The notes below the pieces were generated by a model. It was not told the DNA's origin. It searched no databases and was given only the letters and a program-made list of their open reading frames with translations. This document shows positions 1,198 to 25,555 of a stretch of DNA of 36,306 nucleotides, one piece after another (the stretch's first letter is position 1; every line of letters begins with the position of its first letter). Source of the DNA: Desulfobacterales bacterium (GTDB lineage: Bacteria; Desulfobacterota; Desulfobacteria; Desulfobacterales; UBA2156); the NCBI GenBank assembly GCA_027025555.1, contig JALVQN010000109.1:1-36306 (forward strand). Direction: 5' to 3'. The translations under genes and the position numbers were made by a program.

Positions 1198-2109
1198 TCA
1201 AGGATTCACCAACGCCCGGAGCCGGTCCAGATTGACGCGGTCATACTCTAGGGCCCCTTTGAATTTGGGGGTCTCGATGATCTTGGGGATGGCTTCGAAC
1301 CGGGGCTCCTGCATGATGAACCGGAAGGCATCCATGCCGATGTACCCTTCTCCCACATGCTCGTGCCGGTCCACCCGGGAGCCGAGCTTTCGCTTGGAAT
1401 CATTGAGGTGGATCAGTTCCAGCCGATCAAGCCCGATAATGTCGTCGAAGGCGGCCAGGGTCTTCTCATAGGCCTCTCGAGTGCGGATGTCATATCCGGC
1501 GGCAAAGATATGGCTCGTATCCAGGCAGACCGCCACCCGGTCCGGATCAAAAATCCCGTCAAGAATGGATCGGAGGTGTTCGAACCGCCCCCCCAGGCTG
1601 GACCCCTGGCCGGCCGTGGTCTCCAGCAGAAGCCGCGTCCCCGGGGCCCGGCAGGCATCAAAGACCCCGTTGATGGCGGCAATAATCTTTTGGATTCCCT
1701 CCCCCTCACCGGCGCCCATGTGGTTGCCGGGATGCAAAACGACATGGGCGATGCCCAGGGCCGAGGAACGCTCAAGTTCCTGGCGCAGGGCGTCCAGGGA
1801 CATGCGGTGTTTCCCGGGTTCCGGAGACGCCAGGTTGAGCAGATACGCCGCATGGGCGGCCACATGGGTGATGCCGGTGGCCCTTTGTGCCGCCTTGAAG
1901 GCGTCGATCTCTTCGGGCAAAAGGGTGCGTTCCTTCCAGGTGCTGGCGTTTTTGGTGAAAATCTGCAGCGCGGTGCATCCGTGAGCGGCGGCCGTCCGCA
2001 CGGCCCGGTCCAGGCCGCGGGCGATGGAAAAATGGGCTCCCAAGAGGGGCTGCCTGCCCCTTGACTTTTCAGGCGTTGTGCAGGTTGACGGATGAAAAGG
2101 CGTTGCCAT
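1198..2109 (-). CDS. nfo: Endonuclease IV (AP endonuclease, TIM-barrel)
   Basis: GAHFSIARGLDRAV, LLLETTAGQGSSLGGRFEHL, VAVCLDTSHIFAAGYD, HLNDSK and RHEHVGEGYIG are Nfo signature motifs. Exact start codon uncertain. Confidence 0.92.
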   Translation of the reverse strand: MATPFHPSTCTTPEKSRGRQPLLGAHFSIARGLDRAVRTAAAHGCTALQIFTKNASTWKERTLLPEEIDAFKAAQRATGITHVAAHAAYLLNLASPEPGKHRMSLDALRQELERSSALGIAHVVLHPGNHMGAGEGEGIQKIIAAINGVFDACRAPGTRLLLETTAGQGSSLGGRFEHLRSILDGIFDPDRVAVCLDTSHIFAAGYDIRTREAYEKTLAAFDDIIGLDRLELIHLNDSKRKLGSRVDRHEHVGEGYIGMDAFRFIMQEPRFEAIPKIIETPKFKGALEYDRVNLDRLRALVNP

Positions 2110-2214
2110 TTTCTACATTTTTGTATTATTTTTCAGCCATCGTTTCAAAGACCCGCCCGGGGCCGGGAAACGGCCCCGGGCACCGATCCCAACCCGGATG
2201 CAAGGAGCTGCTCC

Positions 2215-3738
2215 ATGGAGCGCATCGAAGAGATTACCCTGCTTTATGAAATCAGCAAGGCCCTCCATGAACACCTGGACCTGCGCAGGTCTTTATACAG
2301 GGTTTTGGAAATCCTGTCCAATTCCATGAACATGACCCGGGGCACCATATCCATCCTGGACCCGGTCAAAGACGAAATCCACATCGAGGTGGCCCACGGT
2401 CTTTCCAGATCCGCCATCGCCCGGGGCAGATACAAGGTGGGCGAAGGCATCACGGGGCGCGTCATCGAGGGCGGAAAGCCCATCATCATTCCCAGGATCA
2501 GCCAGGAACCCCAGTTTTTGGACCGTACCGCCTCCCGGCGATCCAAGACCGACGAGGAGCTTTCCTTCATCTGCGTCCCCATCAAAAAAGGAAGGCGGGT
2601 CATCGGCGCCCTGAGTGCCGATCGCCCCTTTGACCCAGACTATCTGCTGGAGGAGGGGCTTCAATTGCTCTCGGTGGTGGCCGCCATGGTGGCCCAGCAT
2701 GTCATCAACCTGGAGACCATCCGCCTGGAAAAGGAACAGCTCAAAGAAGAGAACCGCCGCCTTAAAAACGCCCTTACAAACCGGTATCGCTTCACCAATA
2801 TCGTGGGAAACAGCAACAAGATGCGCGAGGTGTTCCAGATGATCGCCCAGGTTTCCAAGAGCAACGCCACGGTGTTGATCCGGGGGGAAAGCGGCACCGG
2901 CAAGGAACTCGTGGCAAGCTCCATCCATTACAACAGCCCCCGGGCCGGCGCTCCCCTGGTCAAGGTCAACTGCGCGGCCCTGCCCGCCCCGCTCATCGAA
3001 AGCGAACTCTTCGGGCATGAAAGGGGCGCCTTCACCGGAGCGATCCGGAAAAAGATCGGGAAATTCGAGCTGGCGGACAAAGGCACCATCTTCCTCGATG
3101 AAATCGGGTCCCTCCAGGTGGACCTCCAGGTCAAGCTGCTCCGGGTGCTCCAGGAAAAGGCCTTCGAAAGGGTAGGGGGGCACCGGACCCTGAACGTCGA
3201 CGTGCGCATCATCGCGGCCACCAACAAAGACCTCGAAAAGGCGGTGGAAGAAGAAACCTTTCGGGGCGATCTTTACTACCGCCTCAATGTCTTTCCCATC
3301 TACATGCCCCCCTTGAGGGAAAGGAAGACCGACATTTTGCTTCTGGCCGATTTCTTCCTGGAAAAGTACGCCCGCAAAAACCGAAAGAGGATCCGCCGCT
3401 TTTCCACCCCGGCCATCGACATGCTCATGCAGTACCACTGGCCCGGGAATGTGCGGGAGCTGGAAAACTGCATCGAACGGGCGGTGCTATTGTGCGAGGA
3501 AGGGGTCATCCACAGCTACCACCTGCCCCCCACCCTCATGACCGGCACCGAATCCGACACGCTCCCGGCCCGTTCCCTGGAGGAAGCCGTGGAAAACCTG
3601 GAGCGGGAGATGATCATCGATGCCTTGAAAAACACCCGCGGAAACAGCACCCGGGCCGCCGCCCTCCTCAAGACCACCCTGCGCAAGTTCGCTTACAAGG
3701 CCAAGCGATACGGCATCGACTACCGGCGGTACCGCTGA
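2215..3738 (+). CDS. nifA: NifA-like sigma54-dependent transcriptional activator (GAF - AAA+ - HTH)
   Basis: Start at 2215 preferred (AAGGAG upstream). N-terminal GAF domain of NifA type (RGRYKVGEGITGRVIEGGKPIIIPRISQEPQFLDRT), Walker A GESGTGKE, GAFTGA loop, Walker B FLDEIG, C-terminal Fis-type HTH. Symbol denotes similarity; the regulon is unknown. Confidence 0.8.
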   Translation: MERIEEITLLYEISKALHEHLDLRRSLYRVLEILSNSMNMTRGTISILDPVKDEIHIEVAHGLSRSAIARGRYKVGEGITGRVIEGGKPIIIPRISQEPQFLDRTASRRSKTDEELSFICVPIKKGRRVIGALSADRPFDPDYLLEEGLQLLSVVAAMVAQHVINLETIRLEKEQLKEENRRLKNALTNRYRFTNIVGNSNKMREVFQMIAQVSKSNATVLIRGESGTGKELVASSIHYNSPRAGAPLVKVNCAALPAPLIESELFGHERGAFTGAIRKKIGKFELADKGTIFLDEIGSLQVDLQVKLLRVLQEKAFERVGGHRTLNVDVRIIAATNKDLEKAVEEETFRGDLYYRLNVFPIYMPPLRERKTDILLLADFFLEKYARKNRKRIRRFSTPAIDMLMQYHWPGNVRELENCIERAVLLCEEGVIHSYHLPPTLMTGTESDTLPARSLEEAVENLEREMIIDALKNTRGNSTRAAALLKTTLRKFAYKAKRYGIDYRRYR

Positions 3739-3838: not shown

Positions 3839-5254
<1,416 letters not shown>

Positions 5255-5354
5255 GAGCATGCCTCCTTTGATGTAAAGATTGGATTGGAATTGAAACAAG
5301 CTTCAGTGAAGCCTCTTTTTGGGCCATCAAAATCCATAAGGGGCCTTTTTTTCA

Positions 5355-7066
<1,712 letters not shown>

Positions 7067-7085: not shown

Positions 7086-9788
7086 TTATCTGAAGGGTTC
7101 TTGTCCTTTTTTCTGCTCCGGGACCTTTCCGGGAGGGACCGGCGGGATCCCCCCCTTTCCGGTCAAGGGATCTTTCAAGGCCGCTTCCAGGGCGGAGCGG
7201 ATCCGGGCTTCCTGGGCGGGGGTGTCCGCTTTCTGGCCTTCCAGATCCCGGACGTAAAAGACATCCACCACCTGATCCACCTTGGTGGCGATCTTGGCCA
7301 CCCGGATGTCGAGGCCGCACCGGAAGATGGCGTCGCTGACCCCGTAAAGGAGCCCGGGAAAATCGTCGGCCACCACTTCAATGAGGGTGAAAAAACTGGA
7401 ACCGGCATTGTCCACGGACACCCGGAAAGGCCGCCTGGTCCCGCGGATACGGGGCACGCCGCCTGTCGAAAATTTGTCCTTGAGGGCCCGGGAGAGGTCC
7501 AGGCTCCCGGCAAGGACCGCATCCAGGTGCATTTTGGCCCGAATCCAGCGCTCTTTTTCGAACAACCGATCCGGCGGGGGTTTCACCGTGAAAAGATCCA
7601 GGGCGGTCTGGTTTTTCCATGTAAAGGCCTGGGCATCCAGGATGTCGATGCCGTTGAGGGTGAAGACGCCGGCGATCATCGAAAAAAGGCCGGGCCGGTC
7701 CTTGGCGCACACTGTGATCTCCCGGAGGGAGGGATCCTTCCCTTGGACCACCTGCCAGACGGCCCCCTGACCCTTCAATTGCCGGTACAAGGCGATGTGG
7801 TTTAAGATGGCCCTTTGGGGGACGGCGATGAGATAGCGGGGGGACATGGCCTCCAGCAGCGCCGCCACCGCCGCCCTTTCTTCGGGCGTTTCCACCGCCT
7901 CCACCAGGGCCCGCCGCTTCCGGTGCACGGCCTCCATGGCTTCCCGGCTCGCCAGCTCTCCCCTTTCCAAGATCCTCAAGGTCTTGAGGAACAGGTCCTT
8001 CAAGAGGGCCGCGGTCCAGCTGTTCCAGGCCTTGGGGCCGGTGGCCGCGGCGTCGGCCGCGGTGAGGAGGTAGAGCATCTTCAGCCGTTCCGGGTCCTTG
8101 ACCCGCCGGGCGCAGTAAATGGCCGTCTCTTCGTCTTGAAGGTCCCGCCGCGTGGCGGTCTTCATGAGGAAGAGGTGCTCTTTCACCAAGAAAGCGACGG
8201 CTTTTGCATCGGCCGGGCTGTAGCCCTTGGCCGTCATCACGGCCTGGGCCGTGACGGCACCCTTTTGCGCATGATCCCCCCTGGAGGTGCCCTTCCCGAT
8301 GTCATGGAGCAAGGCCGCCCAAAGGAGCCGTTTCCGGTTTTTGATCTCAAAAAAGAGTCTCGTCAACAAGGGGTCCGGAGAAGTGGCTTCCTCACGGAAA
8401 CCGTGGAGGGCCTCCACCGTGTGCAGAAGATGCAGGTCCACGGGAAAAAGATGATAGGCGTCGTACTGGATGCGGTGGAGCACCCCTTTGAACTCGGGGA
8501 TGAAGGCCGACAAAAACCCGGAATCCAGCATCTCCCTGAGTACCCGGTGGGCTTGACGGCCCAAAAGGATCCGCTCGAAAGAACGGCGGACGACGGGGGA
8601 GGACCCCTCGACGAGGGGGGAAAGCTCCTGGATCAATCGCTTGGCCTCTCCGCTTAAGGGGATCTTCAAGCGAAGGCTTTGTTCAAAAATCTGAACCAAA
8701 AGGGCGGGGGCTTTCACGACCTGCTCGGGCGCCTCGAAGTAAAGCATGTCGTCTTCCACGAAAAGACCCGGGATGCCGGCCTTTGGTCGGGCCCTTTTCT
8801 TCCTTCCCGAGGGCCTGTCCAGGCCCTGTTCATACAGGAAGCGCAGGTGCTGGGATTTGATGAAATCCATGTGACCGTGCAGGATGCTGAGGAAGACTTC
8901 CACGGGCTCCTGACCGTCGGTCTTCTTGAAACCCATGGCATCGGCGAGGGCGATCTGGTTTTCAAAAAGGAGCCGATCCCACTTCCTGCCCGAAAGAAGA
9001 TGAAGGCGGTTCCGGACCTCCCAGATGAAGGCCAGGGCCCGTTGCAGGCGCTCGAATTCCCTGTGGGAGAGGCACCCCCCATACTCCAGTTCCCGGGGCG
9101 TCCTCAGGTCAAAGAGGATCCGGGCAATCCACAGCATGGTGTGATAATCCCTCAGGCCGCCTTGACCCTCCTTGAGATGCGGTTCCAAGAGACTGCTGGA
9201 ATCGCCGAACTGGAAATGGCGATTGCGGTTGGCCCGGACCAGCCGCTTGACGACCGTCTTGCCATGCTTTTTCAGGAGGGTCTCCCGGAGGGCTTCGGCC
9301 AGCCGGACGGCCACATTCGAAATGCCGCAAATGAACCGGGCATCCAACAGGGGCGTGAGGGATTCGAAATCCTTTTTGCCCAGCGCCAGGCTCTCCTTCA
9401 CGGTCCGCACCGCATACCCGACCTCCATGCCCATGTCCCACAGGGGATAGACCAGCTCCCGAATCAAGGCTTCGGCCTTTCGAGGCACCTTCTTTTCAAA
9501 CAAGAACAAGAGATCCACGTCTGAATGGACACATTGCTCCTTCCGTCCATACCCCCCCAGGGCGACGATGGCGTAGGGATTGGCGTTGATCTTCAACAGG
9601 GGGCCGATTCTTGACGATGCAAAGGCCGTGTGGAAATAAGCGTCGAAGATCTTGGCATGCTCCTGGAGAAAATCCGGGGCGCAAAGGGAGGCTTGGGCCT
9701 TGAAAAGCCGCTGACGTTGCCTTCTCAAGGCCGCGGCGGCATCATGACTTTTGGCGTCTGCCGCCGGGGTTTCTTCCATCAATGCCAC
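7086..9788 (-). CDS. glnD: Bifunctional [PII] uridylyltransferase / uridylyl-removing enzyme
   Basis: NT motif GGYGRKEQCVHSDVDLLFLF, HD motif LLHDIGKG, two C-terminal ACT domains. GTG at 9788 preferred (AAGGAGGAG 7 nt upstream) over the ORF-track ATG at 9839. Confidence 0.92.
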   Translation of the reverse strand: MALMEETPAADAKSHDAAAALRRQRQRLFKAQASLCAPDFLQEHAKIFDAYFHTAFASSRIGPLLKINANPYAIVALGGYGRKEQCVHSDVDLLFLFEKKVPRKAEALIRELVYPLWDMGMEVGYAVRTVKESLALGKKDFESLTPLLDARFICGISNVAVRLAEALRETLLKKHGKTVVKRLVRANRNRHFQFGDSSSLLEPHLKEGQGGLRDYHTMLWIARILFDLRTPRELEYGGCLSHREFERLQRALAFIWEVRNRLHLLSGRKWDRLLFENQIALADAMGFKKTDGQEPVEVFLSILHGHMDFIKSQHLRFLYEQGLDRPSGRKKRARPKAGIPGLFVEDDMLYFEAPEQVVKAPALLVQIFEQSLRLKIPLSGEAKRLIQELSPLVEGSSPVVRRSFERILLGRQAHRVLREMLDSGFLSAFIPEFKGVLHRIQYDAYHLFPVDLHLLHTVEALHGFREEATSPDPLLTRLFFEIKNRKRLLWAALLHDIGKGTSRGDHAQKGAVTAQAVMTAKGYSPADAKAVAFLVKEHLFLMKTATRRDLQDEETAIYCARRVKDPERLKMLYLLTAADAAATGPKAWNSWTAALLKDLFLKTLRILERGELASREAMEAVHRKRRALVEAVETPEERAAVAALLEAMSPRYLIAVPQRAILNHIALYRQLKGQGAVWQVVQGKDPSLREITVCAKDRPGLFSMIAGVFTLNGIDILDAQAFTWKNQTALDLFTVKPPPDRLFEKERWIRAKMHLDAVLAGSLDLSRALKDKFSTGGVPRIRGTRRPFRVSVDNAGSSFFTLIEVVADDFPGLLYGVSDAIFRCGLDIRVAKIATKVDQVVDVFYVRDLEGQKADTPAQEARIRSALEAALKDPLTGKGGIPPVPPGKVPEQKKGQEPFR

Positions 9789-9856
9789 GGCGTTTCTCCT
9801 CCTTAACCCTTTCCCCAGGTCTTTCGATGACCCGGCCACAGAACCTTTCCATCAGA

Positions 9857-9871: not shown

Positions 9872-9952
9872 AGGCGGTTGATATATCTTTTGTTTCAATG
9901 ATTTCAATTAATTATATGATTTTGGGAAAACGACTCATTAAAAATAAAATTA

Positions 9953-10000
9953 ACAATTATGTAATAAATAGCTCATAAATTACAATTATGTAAATAAATT
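9953..10000. repeat. Two AT-rich dyad direct repeats (possible activator-binding sites)
   Basis: acaattatgtaataaat (from 9953) and acaattatgtaaataaat (from 9982), 29-bp period; each centred on T(T/A)ACA-ATTA-TGTAA. Confidence 0.55.
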
Positions 10001-10006
10001 CAGCCG

Positions 10007-12907
10007 TTATCCCCAAAGGAGGGTGTCCCAGGTTCTTTGGACCCCTTTCCGGAAGGTGAGGAAGCGATCGGCGGGCACCCGGGCGGGTTTTTCCTGAAGA
10101 TTGAGGCGATGGATGCTGGCGCGGTAGACCAAAAAGGCTTTTCTCAAAAGATACGCCCTGTCTTCAGGGAGGCCCCCGGCGTTCATGACAGACTGAAGGA
10201 GGCGCACGTTGTCCGTCCAGTCCAGGATTTCGGGATGCCGGTGGGCGTGACGCAACACCAGAAACTGAACGATAAATTCCACGTCCACCATGCCGCCCCG
10301 GTCTTCTTTGAGGTCGAACACGCCGGGTTCCGGCTTGAGGTGCGCCCTGCGCATGCGCTCGCGCATCTTTCGAACGGCCGATTTCAAGGGCCCTGCCTCC
10401 CGGGGACGGCCCAGCACCTCTTTCCGGACCGCTTCAAACCGGCGCACCAGGGCCGGGTCTCCGCCCACGGCCCGGGCCCGCACCAAGGCCTGGTGCTCCC
10501 AGGTCCAGGCGTGATTCAATTGGTACGCCCTGAAGGCCTCCAGGGAGCTGACCAGCACCCCTGAATGCCCGCTGGGCCGCAGCCGCATATCGATGTCGTA
10601 GAGCACGCCGGCGCGGGTGACCGCCGTCAGGATGTGGACGACCCGCTGGCCGAGACGGGTGAAGAACTGAGTGTTGTCCACGGGCCGTTTCCCGTCGGTT
10701 TGCCCCGGGATCGCGGCATGGAGGAAGACCAGATCCAGGTCCGATCGATACCCCAGCTCGATCCCCCCCAGCTTCCCATAGGCGATCACGGCGAACCCCC
10801 GGTCGCATGCCTCCTTGCCGACGGCGCTTTGAGGCCGGCCGTGCTTCGCCGTCAGGTGGCGCCATGCCAATTCCAGCACCTGTTCCAGGATCACCTCGGC
10901 AATCTCGGTGAGGTGGTCGCTCACCCGCATCAAGGGCAACACACCGGTGATATCGGAGGCCGCCACCCGCAGCACATTGACCTGCTTGAAAATGCAAAGG
11001 GTTTCAATCTGATACTCCAGTTCCTCGGGATCCACCCGGGCCAGGCGCTCCTCCAGTTCCTCTTTCAAAGCCGCCTTCCGGGGGGGCGCATAGAGAACAC
11101 GGGGATCCAAAAGCTCGTCCAACAGGACCGGATGCTGCTTCAAGAAGACCCCGATCCAGGGGCTGGCATTGATGAGGTTCATGAGATGCGTCAGTGCCGG
11201 CGGGTTTTCCAGCAGCAAGGCAAGGTAACTGGTACGGCGCTGAACAGTCCGGATGAGGTCGCATGCCCGGCCCAGCGCCACCAGGGGCGTTTCCCCGCCC
11301 GCCGCCGCCTGGAGGATCCGGGGCATGAGACGGTCCAGACGCCGCCGCCCTTCGGTGCTGAGGGCCCGGGTGGCAGCGTCGTTTCTCAAGTGCTCCAAAA
11401 GACGAAGCGCCCGGCCGGGATCCGAAAAGCCCAGTTCCGCCAAGCGGGCGCCGGCCTGTTCGGGCGTGGCCATGCCCCGCCAGATGTCCCCCAGAAACGA
11501 GAGTTCTTCATCCCCCGAAGGGGCGGGCGACCAGGTCTCCTCGGCCTGGAGCAGTTCTTGAAAATGGGCATGGACGCGCCTCCTGTGCATGTCCAACCGT
11601 TCGATAAAGGCGTCCCACCGGTCAAACCCCATGGACACGGCGAGCCTCAACCGGTCCGCGGCGTCCCGGGGGAGTCCGTGGACCTGCTGGTCGGAAAACT
11701 CCTGGAGCCGGTTTTCCGTGATCCGCAAAAAGACATACGCCTTGATAAGGTCCCGGGAGGTCCTTTCGGAAAGGATCGCCCTCTCGGAGAGCACCTGCAA
11801 GACCTCCAGGATCCCCCGCGCCTGAAGCGCCGGAATCACGCCGCCCCGGATGAGCTGAAACACCTGGCCGAAAAATTCGATTTCCCGGATGCCCCCGGGT
11901 CCGATCTTGATATCGTCTTCCAGTTTTTTTCGCCTGACCTCCATGGCGATGTTGCGCTTCATGTCCCTGAGGGCCTCGAACATGCCGTAATCCAGGTACC
12001 GCCGGTAAACAAAAGGGCGCAGGCGGCGGATGAGGGAGCGGCCGGCATCCACATCGCCGGCCACGGGGCGGGCCTTGATCCATGCGTAGCGTTCCCATTC
12101 CCGGCCGTGCGTTTGGTAGTACTGCTCCATATTGTCGAAGCTCATGACAAGGGGGCCGTTCTCGCCGTCCGGGCGGAGGCGGGTGTCCACGCGGAAGACG
12201 AAGCCGTCCGCCGAGGGACTGCCCAAAACCCGGATCAACTTCTGGCACAGACGGCTGAAAAACAGGTCGTTTCCCAGGCTGCCCCGGGCCCCTTTCGTGG
12301 CGCCGGCCTCGGGGAAGGCAAAGATCAGGTCCACATCCGAAGAAAAATTCAACTCTTTGCCCCCCAGCTTCCCCATGCCGATGACGACAAGCAGCTGGGG
12401 TCTCCCCCGGTCATCGACCGGTGTTTGGTACCGGGCGCACTGCCATCGGTGAAGATGGCGAAGGGCTCCATCGATCACGGCCTCCGCCAGCCGCGTCAGG
12501 TCCGCCATGGTCTCATGGAGGTCGGCCGCCCCCAAAAGATCGCGCCACGCAATGCGCACCATCTCCCGGCACCGGATCCGTCTCAGGGCCGACGCCAGGT
12601 GGGCTTCATCCGCGATCCCCGACAGGGCGGACCTCAAGGCGGCCGCGTATTCTTTTTCGGCATAGGACCGCTTCAAGTCCCCCGATCGGACCAGGTCCAT
12701 GAAGATGCCGGGATCCCGAATCAGGCTTGTGGCCACAAATGCGCTGACGGCAAAGACCCGGGAGACCGCTTCGGCCATCGGGGGAGGGATGGAAAAAGAG
12801 GGATCCCGGCGGCGGACGGCGGAAAGAAGCGCCTCCCGTTTCTCCATGCCCTTGGAAAGCAACGGCTCGGGAAGCCTTTCCAGGATTTTCAGGCTTTGTG
12901 CGTTCAT
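10007..12907 (-). CDS. glnE: Bifunctional glutamine synthetase adenylyltransferase / adenylyl-removing enzyme
   Basis: Two nucleotidyltransferase domains (VIGMGKLGGKELNFSSDVDLIFAF and VIAYGKLGGIELGYRSDLDLVFLH). Start at 12907 preferred (MNAQSLKILERL) over the track start at 13051. Confidence 0.92.
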   Translation of the reverse strand: MNAQSLKILERLPEPLLSKGMEKREALLSAVRRRDPSFSIPPPMAEAVSRVFAVSAFVATSLIRDPGIFMDLVRSGDLKRSYAEKEYAAALRSALSGIADEAHLASALRRIRCREMVRIAWRDLLGAADLHETMADLTRLAEAVIDGALRHLHRWQCARYQTPVDDRGRPQLLVVIGMGKLGGKELNFSSDVDLIFAFPEAGATKGARGSLGNDLFFSRLCQKLIRVLGSPSADGFVFRVDTRLRPDGENGPLVMSFDNMEQYYQTHGREWERYAWIKARPVAGDVDAGRSLIRRLRPFVYRRYLDYGMFEALRDMKRNIAMEVRRKKLEDDIKIGPGGIREIEFFGQVFQLIRGGVIPALQARGILEVLQVLSERAILSERTSRDLIKAYVFLRITENRLQEFSDQQVHGLPRDAADRLRLAVSMGFDRWDAFIERLDMHRRRVHAHFQELLQAEETWSPAPSGDEELSFLGDIWRGMATPEQAGARLAELGFSDPGRALRLLEHLRNDAATRALSTEGRRRLDRLMPRILQAAAGGETPLVALGRACDLIRTVQRRTSYLALLLENPPALTHLMNLINASPWIGVFLKQHPVLLDELLDPRVLYAPPRKAALKEELEERLARVDPEELEYQIETLCIFKQVNVLRVAASDITGVLPLMRVSDHLTEIAEVILEQVLELAWRHLTAKHGRPQSAVGKEACDRGFAVIAYGKLGGIELGYRSDLDLVFLHAAIPGQTDGKRPVDNTQFFTRLGQRVVHILTAVTRAGVLYDIDMRLRPSGHSGVLVSSLEAFRAYQLNHAWTWEHQALVRARAVGGDPALVRRFEAVRKEVLGRPREAGPLKSAVRKMRERMRRAHLKPEPGVFDLKEDRGGMVDVEFIVQFLVLRHAHRHPEILDWTDNVRLLQSVMNAGGLPEDRAYLLRKAFLVYRASIHRLNLQEKPARVPADRFLTFRKGVQRTWDTLLWG

Positions 12908-13016
12908 CCCCTCCCCGGGGTGTTTCTCTTGATTTCCGATTGAAAACCGATTCCCGATATTTTTGTATTGACAGGTTAGGGAATCGGGCGTAAGAAAGCA
13001 AGTTCCAACGATGCAC

Positions 13017-13032
13017 AACGGTGTGCACCGTT
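13017..13032. promoter_or_regulatory. Inverted repeat in glnE/mvhD divergent region
   Basis: AACGGTG-TG-CACCGTT, perfect 7-bp arms. Confidence 0.4.
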
Positions 13033-13036
13033 TCTC

Positions 13037-13049
13037 GGCCGATACGGCC
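13037..13049. promoter_or_regulatory. Second inverted repeat in glnE/mvhD divergent region
   Basis: GGCCG-ATA-CGGCC, perfect 5-bp arms. Confidence 0.3.
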
Positions 13050-13085
13050 ACAAAGACAGGGACGTCTACTGCTCAAAGGAGAGGT

Positions 13086-13147: not shown

Positions 13148-13627
13148 ATGGAAAAACCTTATCGGCTCTCGGTCTTTTTTTGTACCCGTATTGTGGAAAA
13201 CGAGGCCCCATTGCTTTCCCAGGCCCCGGAATCCGTTGAAATCCGCCCCGTCCCCATGGCCTGTTCCAGCATGGTCAAGGACCTCTTTTTGCTCAAGGCC
13301 CTCGAGGCGGGCGCTGACGCAGTGAGCGTATGGGTCTGTCCCGAAGGGGCCTGCCGGCACGTTCAAGGCAATCTGCGTGCGAAAAAGCGGGTGCAGCGGG
13401 TCCAAAGCCTTCTGGAGGACATCGGCCTGGATGGCCGGCGGCTGACCTTTTTCAACCTCGCCCCCCAAGACCGGGTCTCGATTTCAAGCCGCCTTGAAGA
13501 AATCGCCGCCCTGCTTGCCGGGATCGGGAAGAACCCGGCCGGCCCGCCCCGGTCCCGGGACGCCGAACCCGGGCCGGCAACGCCAGCCGGGCTGGAACCC
13601 AAGGCCCCTGACACCCATCCCGGATAA
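13148..13627 (+). CDS. MvhD/FrhD-like (delta-subunit) iron-sulfur protein
   Basis: Core resembles MvhD: MACSSMVKDLFLLKALEAGADAVSVWVCPEGACRHVQGNLRAKKRVQRVQSLLEDIGLDGRRLTF. The N-terminal CxxC pair is reduced to one Cys (FFCTRI). Confidence 0.75.
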   Translation: MEKPYRLSVFFCTRIVENEAPLLSQAPESVEIRPVPMACSSMVKDLFLLKALEAGADAVSVWVCPEGACRHVQGNLRAKKRVQRVQSLLEDIGLDGRRLTFFNLAPQDRVSISSRLEEIAALLAGIGKNPAGPPRSRDAEPGPATPAGLEPKAPDTHPG

Positions 13628-13641
13628 AGGAGAACCGATTC

Positions 13642-14310
13642 ATGATTGTCGGCGAACAGAAACCCGTCCAAGAGATCCTCCAAATGGTGGCCCCCCATCG
13701 GAAATTCCTCATCCTGGGATGCGGCACGTGCGTCAAGACATGCTTTGCCGGGGGAGAAGACGAAGTGGCGCTGCTGGCATCCGCCTTGAGGCTGGCGTCC
13801 AGGAAAGACGGCCGTCCGGTTGAAATCGAAGAATTGACCGTGGAGCGACAGTGTGAGGACGCGTTCATCGCTGAAGCCGCCGAGGCCGTCTCCCGCAACG
13901 AGGCGGTGCTTTCCCTGGCCTGCGGCGCCGGGGTGCAGGCGGTGGCCCGGCGTTTCCCCCGGTCCCCGGTTTTGCCCGGTGTCAACACCACCTTCCTGGG
14001 GGTGCTGGAACACCAGGGGCTCTTCACCGAGGAATGCGCCGGATGCGGGGATTGTCAGCTGGCCGTTTTCGGCGGGGTGTGCCCCTTTTCCCGCTGCGCC
14101 AAGAAGTTGCTCAACGGCCCCTGCGGCGGCTCCCAGGAGGGCAAGTGCGAGGTGGATCCCGACACGGAGTGCGCATGGCATCTCATCATCGAGCGGCTCA
14201 GCGCCCTGGGGCGACTGGATCAGCTCAGGGCCTACGTGCCGCCCAAGAACTGGCAGACCAGCCTGTCCGGGGGTCCGCGAAAATTAATCCGGAAGGACCA
14301 CGTGATATGA
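13642..14310 (+). CDS. metV: Methylenetetrahydrofolate reductase small/accessory subunit, MetV-type (C-terminal-domain protein)
   Basis: Cys-rich ECAGCGDCQLAVFGGVCPFSRCAKKLLNGPCGGSQEGKCEVDPDTECAWHLIIERL; immediately precedes and overlaps metF. Confidence 0.82.
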   Translation: MIVGEQKPVQEILQMVAPHRKFLILGCGTCVKTCFAGGEDEVALLASALRLASRKDGRPVEIEELTVERQCEDAFIAEAAEAVSRNEAVLSLACGAGVQAVARRFPRSPVLPGVNTTFLGVLEHQGLFTEECAGCGDCQLAVFGGVCPFSRCAKKLLNGPCGGSQEGKCEVDPDTECAWHLIIERLSALGRLDQLRAYVPPKNWQTSLSGGPRKLIRKDHVI

Positions 14311-15230
14311 ATACCGAACCGATCAGCAACCTGCACCGGGTGCTCTCCCGGGGACACTTCGCCGTCACCGCGGAATGCGGTCCGCCCCGGGGCGCCAACG
14401 GCGAGGCGGTCCGGGAAAAGGGCGCGCTCCTCAAAGGCGTGGTGGACGCGGTGAACGTCACGGACAACCAAACCGCCATCGTGCGCATGTCCAGCATCAG
14501 CGCCTGCAAACACCTTATGGACCTGGGCCTGGAGCCGGTGATGCAGATGGTCACCCGGGACCGGAACCGCATCGCCCTCCAGTCGGACATCCTGGGCGCC
14601 TATTCCCTGGGCATCAAAAACATCCTTTGCCTTTCCGGAGATCACCAGCGCTTCGGCAGTCATCCGGAGGCCCTGAACGTCTTCGACATCGACTCCATGA
14701 ACCTCCTCAGCACCGTGCGCACCATGAGAGAACAAGGCAAAGACCTGAGCGGGCACGCCCTCGACGGTGCGCCGAAGATGTTCATCGGGGCCGCGGCCAA
14801 TCCCTTCGCGGATCCCTTCGAGTACCGCGTCATCCGGTTGGCCAAGAAGATCGATGCCGGGGCGGACTTCATCCAGACCCAGTGCATCTACAACCTGGAC
14901 CGGTTCAAGGCCTGGATGGACATGGCCGCCGGGGAAGGCCTCACGGAAAAGGTCCACATCCTGGCAGGCGTGACGCCTTTGAAATCCGCGCCCATGGCGC
15001 GTTACATGGCCCAGAACGTGGCCGGCATGGATATCCCGGAACCCCTCCTCCGCCGCATGGCCGGCGTCCCCAAGAAAAAGGCGGCCCAGGAGGGCATCGC
15101 CATCTGCCTGGAGACCCTCCAGGCGCTCCGGGAAATACCGGGGGTCCACGGCGTGCACATCATGGCCATCGAATGGGAAAACCAGGTCAAAACCATCGTG
15201 GAAAGGGCGGGGCTTCTCCCGAGGCCCTGA
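14307..15230 (+). CDS. metF: 5,10-methylenetetrahydrofolate reductase
   Basis: VTAECGPPRG, VNVTDNQTAIVRMSS, QMVTRDRNRIALQSDILGA, LCLSGDHQRFG, GADFIQTQCIYNLDRF, HILAGVTPLKS. ATG at 14307 overlaps the metV TGA. Confidence 0.92.
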   Translation: MNTEPISNLHRVLSRGHFAVTAECGPPRGANGEAVREKGALLKGVVDAVNVTDNQTAIVRMSSISACKHLMDLGLEPVMQMVTRDRNRIALQSDILGAYSLGIKNILCLSGDHQRFGSHPEALNVFDIDSMNLLSTVRTMREQGKDLSGHALDGAPKMFIGAAANPFADPFEYRVIRLAKKIDAGADFIQTQCIYNLDRFKAWMDMAAGEGLTEKVHILAGVTPLKSAPMARYMAQNVAGMDIPEPLLRRMAGVPKKKAAQEGIAICLETLQALREIPGVHGVHIMAIEWENQVKTIVERAGLLPRP

Positions 15231-15241
15231 AGGGATCGACC

Positions 15242-16654
15242 ATGCCGAAGAAATACCATGTCGCCGTGAAGACGGCACCGCCCCGTTTCCCCGCCATCGG
15301 CAAGTATACCACCGTGGAGTTCAAGGAAGACTGCGCGGGAAGCTGCCGGGCCTGCGTCAAGAAAAAATGCGTCTACGGCGTCTTCAAGGAGACCCACGAA
15401 TACGCCCTCAGGCGAATCGATCCGGAATATCTTTACATCTGTCAGAGTTGCTTTCGGTGCGTCCAGGAATGCACCAAGGGAATCTTTTCCCGGGTGATCA
15501 ATCCGGCATACAAGAACCTGGGAACCGCCTACTGGCGCAGAGACATCCTCCATCGCCTCTGGTACCAGGCCCACTACGGAAAGATCCCCGTGTCCGGCGC
15601 CGGGTACCGCGGCCCCTTCACCGGGAAGGGGTTCGACGCCATGTGGACCGACATGTCGGAAATCGTCAGGCCCACCCGGGACGGCATCCACGGCCGGGAG
15701 TACATCAACACGAGCATCGAGCTCTCCCGCCGCCTCCCCTTCCTGACGTTCGCCCCGGACGGCGGTCCGGACTGCCGCGTGCCCGCGATTCTGGAAATCT
15801 CGATCCCCGTGCTTCTGCAGTGGCCCGAACACCTTGTCAAAACGGAATCCGCCCTCCTTTGCGCCGCCGGGGCGGCCGCCCGGCTCGGCACCCTCATGCT
15901 TCTGGATCCCGAGGATGTCACCGAGGCGCTTCTGCCCTATGCCGGCAGCATCGTCTGCCGGATCAAAGGGGACGCCTTCCAAGAATCGGCGCCCCTTATG
16001 GAAAAAATCCCCATGGTGGAAGTGGCCGACGGGCCGGACCGCACCCACATCCTCGCGCAACTGAAAAAAGTGCGACCGAACCTTCCCGTGGCCGCGGGGC
16101 TGCCCCTGACCCCGGACGCCCCGGAACAAGCCGTGGCCCTGACCGAGGCGGGGGTGGACGCCATCCACTTTTACGCCACACAAGACGGCCATGAGAAGAA
16201 TACGCCGTCGCCGCGATTCCTCAAAGACAGTATCCGCTCCGTTCACCTGGAGCTTGTGGCCCGCGGCCTCCGGCAACGGGTGAACCTCCTCTTCTCGGGC
16301 GGCATCGCCATGGCCGAACACATGGCCAAAGCCATCATTTGCGGTGCGGACGGTGTGGTGGCGGATACCGTATTGCCGGTGGCCCTGGAGTGCCGCCTCT
16401 GCTTCCGATGCCGGGAGGGCCTCTCCTGCCCCGTGGCCCTCGACCGTCCCGTCAACCGGCAATGGGGACGGCAACGGATCGTCAACCTCCTGGGCGCCTG
16501 GCACAACCAGCTCATCGAGGTGATGGGGGCCATGGGGATCCGGGAAGCCCGGCGGCTGAGAGGTGAAATCGGCCGGTCCATGCAATTTGAAGACCTGGAA
16601 CAAGAGATTTTCGCCCCGATTTTCGGGGGAAAAAAAGCCGTGGAGTCTGCCTGA
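15242..16654 (+). CDS. Fe-S / FMN glutamate synthase-related protein (GltB domain 2-like paralog)
   Basis: N-terminal Cys clusters (CAGSCRACVKKKC, CQSCFRCVQEC), FMN-barrel-like MSEIVRPTRDGIHGREYINTSIEL and LLFSGGIAMAEHMAKAIICGADGVVADT, C-terminal CRLCFRCREGLSC. Confidence 0.75.
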   Translation: MPKKYHVAVKTAPPRFPAIGKYTTVEFKEDCAGSCRACVKKKCVYGVFKETHEYALRRIDPEYLYICQSCFRCVQECTKGIFSRVINPAYKNLGTAYWRRDILHRLWYQAHYGKIPVSGAGYRGPFTGKGFDAMWTDMSEIVRPTRDGIHGREYINTSIELSRRLPFLTFAPDGGPDCRVPAILEISIPVLLQWPEHLVKTESALLCAAGAAARLGTLMLLDPEDVTEALLPYAGSIVCRIKGDAFQESAPLMEKIPMVEVADGPDRTHILAQLKKVRPNLPVAAGLPLTPDAPEQAVALTEAGVDAIHFYATQDGHEKNTPSPRFLKDSIRSVHLELVARGLRQRVNLLFSGGIAMAEHMAKAIICGADGVVADTVLPVALECRLCFRCREGLSCPVALDRPVNRQWGRQRIVNLLGAWHNQLIEVMGAMGIREARRLRGEIGRSMQFEDLEQEIFAPIFGGKKAVESA

Positions 16655-16657
16655 AAA

Positions 16658-18211
16658 ATGAAAATTCAAGAAAGCCCGAAGGCGGCGCTGCCCCAAACCG
16701 CGGAGACGCCGTCCCGGTTTCGCAACCCCATCGGAAAATACGTCCTGGTCAGAAACGCACGGTGTGTCGGCTGCGGACTCTGTGCGACGCTGTGTCCTTA
16801 CGGGGTCCATCCCCGATACGACGTCTATTCCCGGGCCCTCAAACCCAAAAGCCATCGATGCATCGGGTTCGCCTGCCGGCAAAACGACTTTTATTGTATC
16901 GACCGCTGCCCTGAAAAGGCGCTTACTCTCAGGCAAAATCCCATCCTGGAGACGTTGGGCGACTTCCGTTGGCCGGCCGAGATGCTCATCGGGCATTGGG
17001 AGATGGCGGAAACCGGCCGCCTGCCCGTGGTGGACCTGGAAACCGACCTGGGATGCTCCGGCGGGGGCTTCGATAAAATCCGGTTTCGCCACCCGGACCC
17101 CGACCAGTATCTGGACGTTCCGGACGAGGCCGTGGACACCGGGATCGACCTCAACAAGCGGGGAGACGGCCGGCCCAAAAAACGGCTTTCCCTCCCCTGT
17201 TACGGCGGCGGCATGTCCTTCGGCTCCACGGCCCTGTCGGTGATGGTGGGAAGGGCCCGGGCCGCCCGGCGCTTGAACACCTTAACGTGTACAGGCGAAG
17301 GCGGATATCCCCCGGAATTGATGCCGTATGCCGACCACGTCATCACCCAGATCGCCACGGGCCTTTTCGGGGTCCGGGAAGAAACCATCCTCCTGGCGCC
17401 CGTGGTGGAATTCAAGTACGCCCAGGGGGCCAAGCCCGGGCTGGGCGGACATCTTCTGGGGGACAAGGTCACGCCGGAAGTGGCGGCCATGCGGGAGACG
17501 GTGCCGGGAAACGCCCTCTTTTCACCGTTTCCCTTCCACAGCGTCTATTCGGTGGAAGACCACAAGAAACACGTGGACTGGGTGAAGGAGATCAATCCCG
17601 ACGTCCTGGTTTCGGTCAAGGTCTCCACCCCCACGGACGTGGATATGGTGGCGGTGGGAAGTTACTATGCCGGTGCTCACATCATCCACCTGGACGGGAG
17701 TTACGGCGGCACGGGCGCCGCCCCGGACATCGCCAAGAAGAACATCGCCATGCCCATCGAGTACGCCATCCCCAAGGTGCACCGCTTCATGATCGAAGAG
17801 GGCGTCCGGGACGAAATCTGCCTGATTGCCAGCGGCGGCATCCGGAACGCCATGGATGTGGCCAAGGCCATCGCCCTGGGCGCCGACGGGGTGGTCATCG
17901 GCACCGCCGAACTGGTGGCCCTGGAGTGCGTGCGCTGCGGAAACTGCGAAAGCGGACGGGGCTGCGCCCGGGGCATCGCCACCACGGATACGGAGCTGGG
18001 GTGCATGATCAGCACGCAATGGGCCGAACAGCGCCTGGTCAACATGTATGCGGCATGGCGGAAAACCTGGTGCGCCCTGTTGAGACAATACGGCCTCCGG
18101 AGCCTGAACGAACTGACAGGCCGCACCGACCTTCTGGTCCATCTCGATTACCTGGAGCCGTCGGAGCGGGCCACCTATCGCCCGGCACCCGAAGAAGCCA
18201 TCATCCTGTAA
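16658..18211 (+). CDS. Ferredoxin-domain FMN-binding glutamate synthase (GltB domain 2)
   Basis: 4Fe-4S motif CVGCGLCATLCPYGVHP; LPCYGGGMSFGSTALSVMVGRARAA, TGEGGYPPEL, VEFKYAQGAKPGLGGHLLGDKVTPEVA, HLDGSYGGTGAAPDIAKKN, GNCESGRGCARGIATT. Confidence 0.88.
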   Translation: MKIQESPKAALPQTAETPSRFRNPIGKYVLVRNARCVGCGLCATLCPYGVHPRYDVYSRALKPKSHRCIGFACRQNDFYCIDRCPEKALTLRQNPILETLGDFRWPAEMLIGHWEMAETGRLPVVDLETDLGCSGGGFDKIRFRHPDPDQYLDVPDEAVDTGIDLNKRGDGRPKKRLSLPCYGGGMSFGSTALSVMVGRARAARRLNTLTCTGEGGYPPELMPYADHVITQIATGLFGVREETILLAPVVEFKYAQGAKPGLGGHLLGDKVTPEVAAMRETVPGNALFSPFPFHSVYSVEDHKKHVDWVKEINPDVLVSVKVSTPTDVDMVAVGSYYAGAHIIHLDGSYGGTGAAPDIAKKNIAMPIEYAIPKVHRFMIEEGVRDEICLIASGGIRNAMDVAKAIALGADGVVIGTAELVALECVRCGNCESGRGCARGIATTDTELGCMISTQWAEQRLVNMYAAWRKTWCALLRQYGLRSLNELTGRTDLLVHLDYLEPSERATYRPAPEEAIIL

Positions 18212-21059: not shown

Positions 21060-22202
21060 ATGAACGGACTCCTCGCCCTGGAAGACGGCCGGACCTTTCC
21101 CTGCCGCTCCTTTACCGGACCGGGTGAATGTGCGGGCGAAATCGTCTTCAACACCAGCATGACCGGATACCAGGAAATCCTCACCGATCCGTCCTACCGG
21201 GGACAGATGGTGGCCATGACCTACCCCCTCATCGGCAATTACGGGGTCAATGCCGAGGATGTGGAGTCGGATCGCATCCAGGTCCGGGGCTTTTTGGTCC
21301 GGGAATACCAGGCCCACCCCAGCAATTTCAGGGCCACGGGCACCCTGGGGGACTATCTGGCCGGCCAGGGGGTCCTCGGCGTGGAAGGCCTCGACACCCG
21401 GGCCCTCACCCTGCACATCCGGAGCCGGGGCGCCATGCGGGCCGTCATCTCCACCCTCGATCCCGACCCGGATTCCCTGGTGAAAAAGGCCCGGGCCGTT
21501 GACTCCATGGCCGGGGCCGATTTCGTGGCGGAAGTCACGGTCCGAAAACCCTATTTCTGGCACAAGGGCCGTTGCGTCCCCCTCGAGCAGGGGGAAGAAG
21601 ACCGCCTGGATCCCTCCGTCTGGGACTCCCGGAGCGCCCCCTTGAGGGTCGTGGCTTTTGATTTCGGAATCAAATACAATATTTTGCGGTGCCTGGGGCG
21701 GGTGGGATGCCAGGTCCTGGTGGTGCCGGCGTCCACGCCCGCGTCCACCGTGAAAGCCCTGGAACCCGACGGCGTCTTCCTTTCCAACGGTCCCGGGGAC
21801 CCGGAACCGGTCACCTATGCCATCGAGACCGTCCGGGACCTTCTGGGGTACCGCCCCCTCTTCGGAATCTGCCTGGGGCATCAGATCCTGGGCCTGGCCC
21901 TGGGCGGCCGCACCTTTAAGCTGAAGTTCGGCCACCGGGGGGCCAACCAGCCCGTGAAGAACCTTTTGACGGGCCGCGTGGAGATCACCTCGCAGAATCA
22001 CGGCTTTGCCGTGGAAACAAAAAGCCTTGAAGGCGAGGCCGTGGAAATCACCCACATCAACCTCAACGACGGCACCCTGGAAGGCTTCCGCCACCGGAAA
22101 CTCCCGGTGCTCGCCGTGCAATACCACCCGGAGGCCTCCCCGGGACCCCATGACGCCGATTACCTCTTTGACGTGTTTAAGGAAATGATGACGCGAAATT
22201 AA
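21060..22202 (+). CDS. carA: Carbamoyl-phosphate synthase small subunit (glutamine amidotransferase)
   Basis: [80 protein letters not shown]. Confidence 0.95.
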
Positions 22203-22252
22203 CCGACGCCGGCACGCCCGTCTTTTTCAAGGAAGCCGCCCGGAAATCTTCC

Positions 22253-25551
<3,299 letters not shown>

Positions 25552-25555
<4 letters not shown>

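Follow-up and report, generated by a model that had tools for sequence, protein, structure and literature searches.

Paired TTACA-W4-TGTAA dyads upstream of glnD as probable σ54 enhancer sites of a NifA-like nitrogen regulator in Desulfobacterales

The gap between glnE and glnD in a Desulfobacterales genome contains two palindromic dyads that are very probably σ54 upstream activating sequences bound by the NifA-like enhancer-binding protein encoded at 2215-3738, which would act as a general nitrogen regulator limiting its own synthesis. The sites keep a fixed spacing, are conserved within the order, precede nitrogen genes and recur at the gene of the regulator itself. The analysed stretch (referred to as the window) comprised 36,306 nucleotides of contig JALVQN010000109.1, and the features of the locus were as follows.

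10007-13051, minus strand: glnE (glutamine synthetase adenylyltransferase)
9980-9993, no strand assigned: distal enhancer dyad TTACAATTATGTAA, a perfect motif match; conserved position relative to the -24 box, about -122
9951-9964, no strand assigned: proximal enhancer dyad TAACAATTATGTAA, one mismatch; conserved position relative to the -24 box, about -91
9902-9914, plus strand: putative IHF-like site TTTCAATTAATTA, located between the -24 box and the dyads, with 8 of 9 positions matching the consensus
9871-9856, minus strand: σ54 -24/-12 element TGGCACAAGCCTTGCT, a perfect box of the TGGCAC-N5-TTGCW type
7086-9788, minus strand: glnD, PII uridylyltransferase (TIGR01693, 613.6 bits)
5765-7066, minus strand: amtB, ammonium transporter (TIGR00836)
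5355-5693, minus strand: PII protein (glnK/glnB)
3839-5299, minus strand: glnA, glutamine synthetase (TIGR00653)
2215-3738, plus strand: NifA-like enhancer-binding protein with GAF, AAA+ and Fis-type HTH domains, the candidate for binding the dyads

The minus strand carries, in this order, glnE, the gap with the dyads and the σ54 box, glnD, amtB, the PII gene and glnA, with the box heading glnD-amtB-PII-glnA. The glnE stop codon lies 13 bp past the distal dyad. The longest glnD ORF begins at 9839, and the actual start is probably the GTG at 9788, which follows the Shine-Dalgarno sequence AAGGAGG at 9804-9798. The preliminary description of this DNA had reported two near-identical palindromic units with a 29-bp period at 9953-10000. 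Both units were found, one perfect and the other with a single mismatch, and the 29-bp period was reproduced from their exact coordinates; the span itself was a few bases off, as the dyads occupy 9951-9964 and 9980-9993. The proximal dyad reads TTACATAATTGTTA on the strand of the transcribed genes. The distance originally given, 110-155 bp upstream of the promoter, is roughly right when counted from the predicted start site (approximately 9845; 106-148 bp), but counted from the -24 box it is only about 80-122 bp. The local AT-richness, described as striking, was borne out by a GC content of 19% at 9945-10006 versus 60% for the whole window, and the 60-mers with the least GC in the window begin at about 9937. 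Genome-wide scans of the source genome were pattern searches only; with at most one mismatch to TTACAWWWWTGTAA, the whole 2.68-Mb genome yielded three matches, comprising both glnD dyads and one in a mutL-like coding sequence. The good match within the mutL-like coding sequence (C137) was discounted, as was a further match lying within an ORF (C188), and the credible sites in this genome were only the glnD pair and a site at the regulator gene, all within 8 kb.

Between 14375 and 25555, the plus strand of the window also holds genes resembling those of glutamate synthase (14375-18211) and genes for carbamoyl-phosphate synthase (21060-25555), which together with glnE-glnD-amtB-PII-glnA form a nitrogen-metabolism island. 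No TTACA-W4-TGTAA pair was found ahead of the glutamate synthase-like or carbamoyl-phosphate synthase genes in this window. The region adjoining glnE (13148-14310) encodes two proteins, the first HdrA/MvhD-like and the second a methylene-tetrahydrofolate-reductase C-terminal (DUF5981) protein.

The preliminary description had named a lack of conservation upstream of glnD orthologues as grounds for rejecting the dyads. The motif proved to be conserved there, with its distance from the -24/-12 element fixed, which supports the proposal that the dyads are enhancer-binding-protein sites of the σ54 promoter. Of the 58 order genomes, which nearly all represent different families, 55 yielded a GlnD relative; the loci were oriented, their upstream sequences were lined up with the σ54 box as anchor, and the 41 promoters with a strong box were analysed. 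A site was counted when at least 8 of 10 positions matched in narrow intervals at about -122 and -91. The 41 promoters contained 50 such sites, with both dyads present in 20 of them, whereas 200 dinucleotide shuffles of the same promoters gave means of 1.3 sites and 0.01 pairs (maxima 5 and 1), the boxes having been picked by score, the shuffles anchored on the same boxes, and the sites being not fully independent owing to the relatedness of the genomes, sampled at nearly one per family. Relative to the -24 box, the dyads of the Desulfobacterales lie at approximately -122 and -91, with a spacing of 31 bp in 16 of 26 cases and of 29-33 bp in most; the 29 bp of the window is not the modal value. 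The consensus is TTACA-W4-TGTAA, with an invariant core C and G and a central N4 that is approximately 97% A/T. In comparisons between families, alignment is limited to the dyads with their spacing and the promoter elements, and the DNA from dyads to promoter could not be aligned by eye, except for an IHF-like match at -44 to -40. Such matches, which like the σ70 elements described below are consensus matches only, cluster at these positions in 25 of 60 promoters, against 0-9 for the other 5-nt intervals on that strand. With a -24/-12 box downstream and a conserved distance and spacing, the dyads show two attributes of σ54 upstream activating sequences. In two genomes of the same family (G003 and G004; loci L101 and L100), the regulator gene lies beside glnD, and neither a σ54 box nor dyads precede glnD, an apparent local loss or rewiring.

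The search for the motif upstream of -24/-12 boxes suggested by the preliminary description was carried out at two levels. One dyad combined with a σ54 box at the right distance gave 26 matches versus 2 in the reversed control among the 58 genomes of the order, and the dyad plus σ54 pattern gave 33 versus 0 among 297 genomes of the phylum; the pair-only pattern produced no control matches. The downstream genes were almost all nitrogen genes, namely glnD, amtB, PII-amtB, glnA, glutamine synthetase (GS) type III, a glutamate-synthase-like (gltB-type) amidotransferase, nifH, nifE and a nifV-like gene, the amidotransferase being assigned by reading its sequence, which matched no Pfam or NCBIfam model. 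Among the nifH promoters inspected within the order, about five had tandem dyads. A perfect dyad pair was also located upstream of carA at locus L150 (G024:C424:7730), where no σ54 box was found, which suggests possible action of the regulator on a non-σ54 promoter as well. Tandem dyads precede genes for small Gcw_chp/TorF-like, probable outer-membrane proteins at L142 (G023:C165) and L152 (G008:C42), and a similar-looking gene precedes amtB in several other genomes. Off-pathway matches in the phylum (a GGDEF protein, L274; a methyl-accepting chemotaxis protein, L281; and L294) were treated as chance or unexplained, and the tandem matches in G016 were set aside as a simple repeat.

The protein encoded at 2215-3738 exceeds the NCBIfam NifA model TIGR01817 narrowly (535.5 versus a cut-off of 528.85). 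A regulator with 68-86% identity occurs in approximately 45 of the 58 genomes of the order, often close to glnD, and its HTH is strongly conserved. Relatives at E<=1e-140 were present in 166 of the 297 phylum genomes, and those with names belong to the Desulfobacterales, among them Desulfonema magnum, Desulfosarcina alkanivorans and Desulfatitalea alkaliphila. Two elements were assigned upstream of the regulator gene.

2113-2126, no strand assigned: CTACATTTTTGTAT, one copy of the motif, ahead of the regulator gene 2215-3738
2103-2129, plus strand: putative σ70-like promoter, TTGCCA (2103-2108) and TATTAT (2124-2129) with a 15-bp spacer

This σ70-like promoter encloses most of the single site. 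Of 78 named loci, 55 have an ACA-W4-TGT core in the 300 bp preceding the regulator gene (against a mean of 0.98 and a maximum of 4 in shuffles), and no σ54 box was detected upstream of the regulator gene at the motif-bearing named loci. In the window and in many relatives, the core is flanked by TTGCCA-like and TATTAT/TATAGT-like hexamers, and because it sits between these -35-like and -10-like elements, its placement suggests self-repression. Outside the order, the motif was present at the regulator gene in 4 of 19 loci, and in most of the eight neighbourhoods inspected by hand the core lay close upstream of the regulator. The motif copies at its own gene support a link between the 2215-3738 protein and the dyads, of which it is the likely reader. 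Dyads at glnD were found in 31 of 44 genomes with the regulator and in 2 of 7 without it, which is a trend only (Fisher p=0.08). The 13 regulator-bearing genomes without qualifying dyads at glnD include G003 and G004, and five of the seven regulator-less genomes had neither the σ54 box nor the dyads there.

At enterobacterial glnA-type σ54 promoters, NtrC sites are paired palindromes about three helical turns apart, approximately 100-140 bp upstream of the start. The arrangement described here is similar, as paired palindromes about three turns apart would govern glnA, amtB and PII genes via σ54, and these same genes, which belong to the core NtrC regulon as compiled for groups including deltaproteobacteria (PMC5343134), were among the targets of the motif. 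In contrast, the NtrC box is GC-rich and was found in none of the 41 glnD promoters, and the candidate regulator, unlike NtrC, lacks a receiver domain and contains a GAF domain. It is nevertheless conceivable, if unlikely, that the dyads are a σ54 nitrogen enhancer read by another enhancer-binding protein, such as an NtrC-type response regulator. Many other such proteins are encoded per genome in this group (first-look candidate counts of approximately 5-107), the response regulator DVU3220 of Desulfovibrio vulgaris has also been assigned to the DVU1231-1233 nitrogen operon (PMC4641369), and two genomes in which no NifA-like orthologue was found, G024 and G043, both fragmented assemblies, keep the dyads. 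The missing NtrC-type box and the finding that the NifA-like gene, often a neighbour of the operon, itself bears the motif in the majority of named loci argue against this reading and favour the 2215-3738 protein.

With NifA, the candidate shares a TIGR01817 match, the GAF-AAA-HTH order and σ54 targets. Unlike for NifA, its main predicted targets are assimilation genes, and the source genome and most of its relatives lack nifH, which was present in 12 of the 58 order genomes; the best nifH match in the source genome fell far below the cut-off. The preliminary description had rightly noted that the sequence is not the classical NifA site, as TGT-N10-ACA occurred in 0 of 41 glnD promoters and 0 of 11 nifH promoters examined, versus 38 of 41 glnD promoters for ACA-N4-TGT. 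Binding of a CRP/FNR-type or other repressor or activator independently of σ54 appears very improbable. A 14-bp palindrome with a 4-bp centre does resemble FNR-type sites, and the motif occurs with no σ54 box at one carA gene (L150) and at the regulator gene, but the fixed distance to the -24 box, the tandem three-turn spacing, the phylum-wide linkage to σ54 boxes with zero control matches, and the count of 0 of 41 glnD promoters for the FNR-like TTGAY-N4-RTCAA (TTGAT-N4-ATCAA-like) pattern all speak for σ54-dependent enhancer sites. Chance palindromes in AT-rich intergenic DNA, or a DNA-bending or terminator region after glnE, would fit the most AT-rich stretch of the window, but this explanation is practically negligible, being contradicted by shuffles of the same promoters that almost never give sites and by the alignment of only dyads, spacing and promoter elements between families.

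The simplest reading is that the regulator is a general nitrogen regulator, NtrC-like in action and NifA-like in build, with its own DNA code. In related genomes, the same cis-code would operate at amtB, glnA, GS III, gltB-type and, where present, nif genes, and this breadth points to a general nitrogen regulator despite the NifA-like sequence. Two dimers of the activator would bind the dyads on nearly the same DNA face, and the AT-rich, IHF-bent DNA between would let the activator touch the σ54 polymerase at 9871-9856, spending ATP to drive glnD-amtB-PII-glnA transcription under nitrogen shortage. The same activator would occupy the single copy inside its own σ70-type promoter and limit its own synthesis. 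In this scheme, the role of IHF is presumptive, sensing may proceed through the GAF domain and/or PII, and the self-control is presumed to be negative.

Kazakov et al. (2015, PMC4641369) predicted from comparative genomics that DVU1949, a one-component σ54 enhancer-binding protein of D. vulgaris, is an autoregulated nitrogen regulator that controls nitrogen metabolism and transport operons, and reported that a nitrogen-metabolism regulon is conserved in most Desulfovibrionales. As a one-component enhancer-binding protein with nitrogen targets and predicted autoregulation, DVU1949 resembles the 2215-3738 protein, a likeness drawn from its description, its motif being given only in a figure. DVU1949 is probably a relative, and the present regulator may represent the DVU1949 family in another order. 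In the papers searched, no match to the literal motif text was returned.

On balance, we lean towards the broader view that general nitrogen control in Desulfobacterales and much of the phylum is exerted by a NifA-family one-component GAF activator, and not by NtrBC, through a TTACA-W4-TGTAA code in which tandem sites with σ54 activate, a single site in its own σ70 promoter represses, and nif is an optional target. Where a protein of Desulfobacterota has been automatically named NifA, it is probably a general nitrogen regulator, and the name should not be taken as a sign of nitrogen fixation. The dyads offer a concrete cis-code for nitrogen control in these major anaerobes, whose nitrogen regulator is poorly characterised, and predictions of nitrogen-controlled genes can be made by scanning any of their genomes for the motif.
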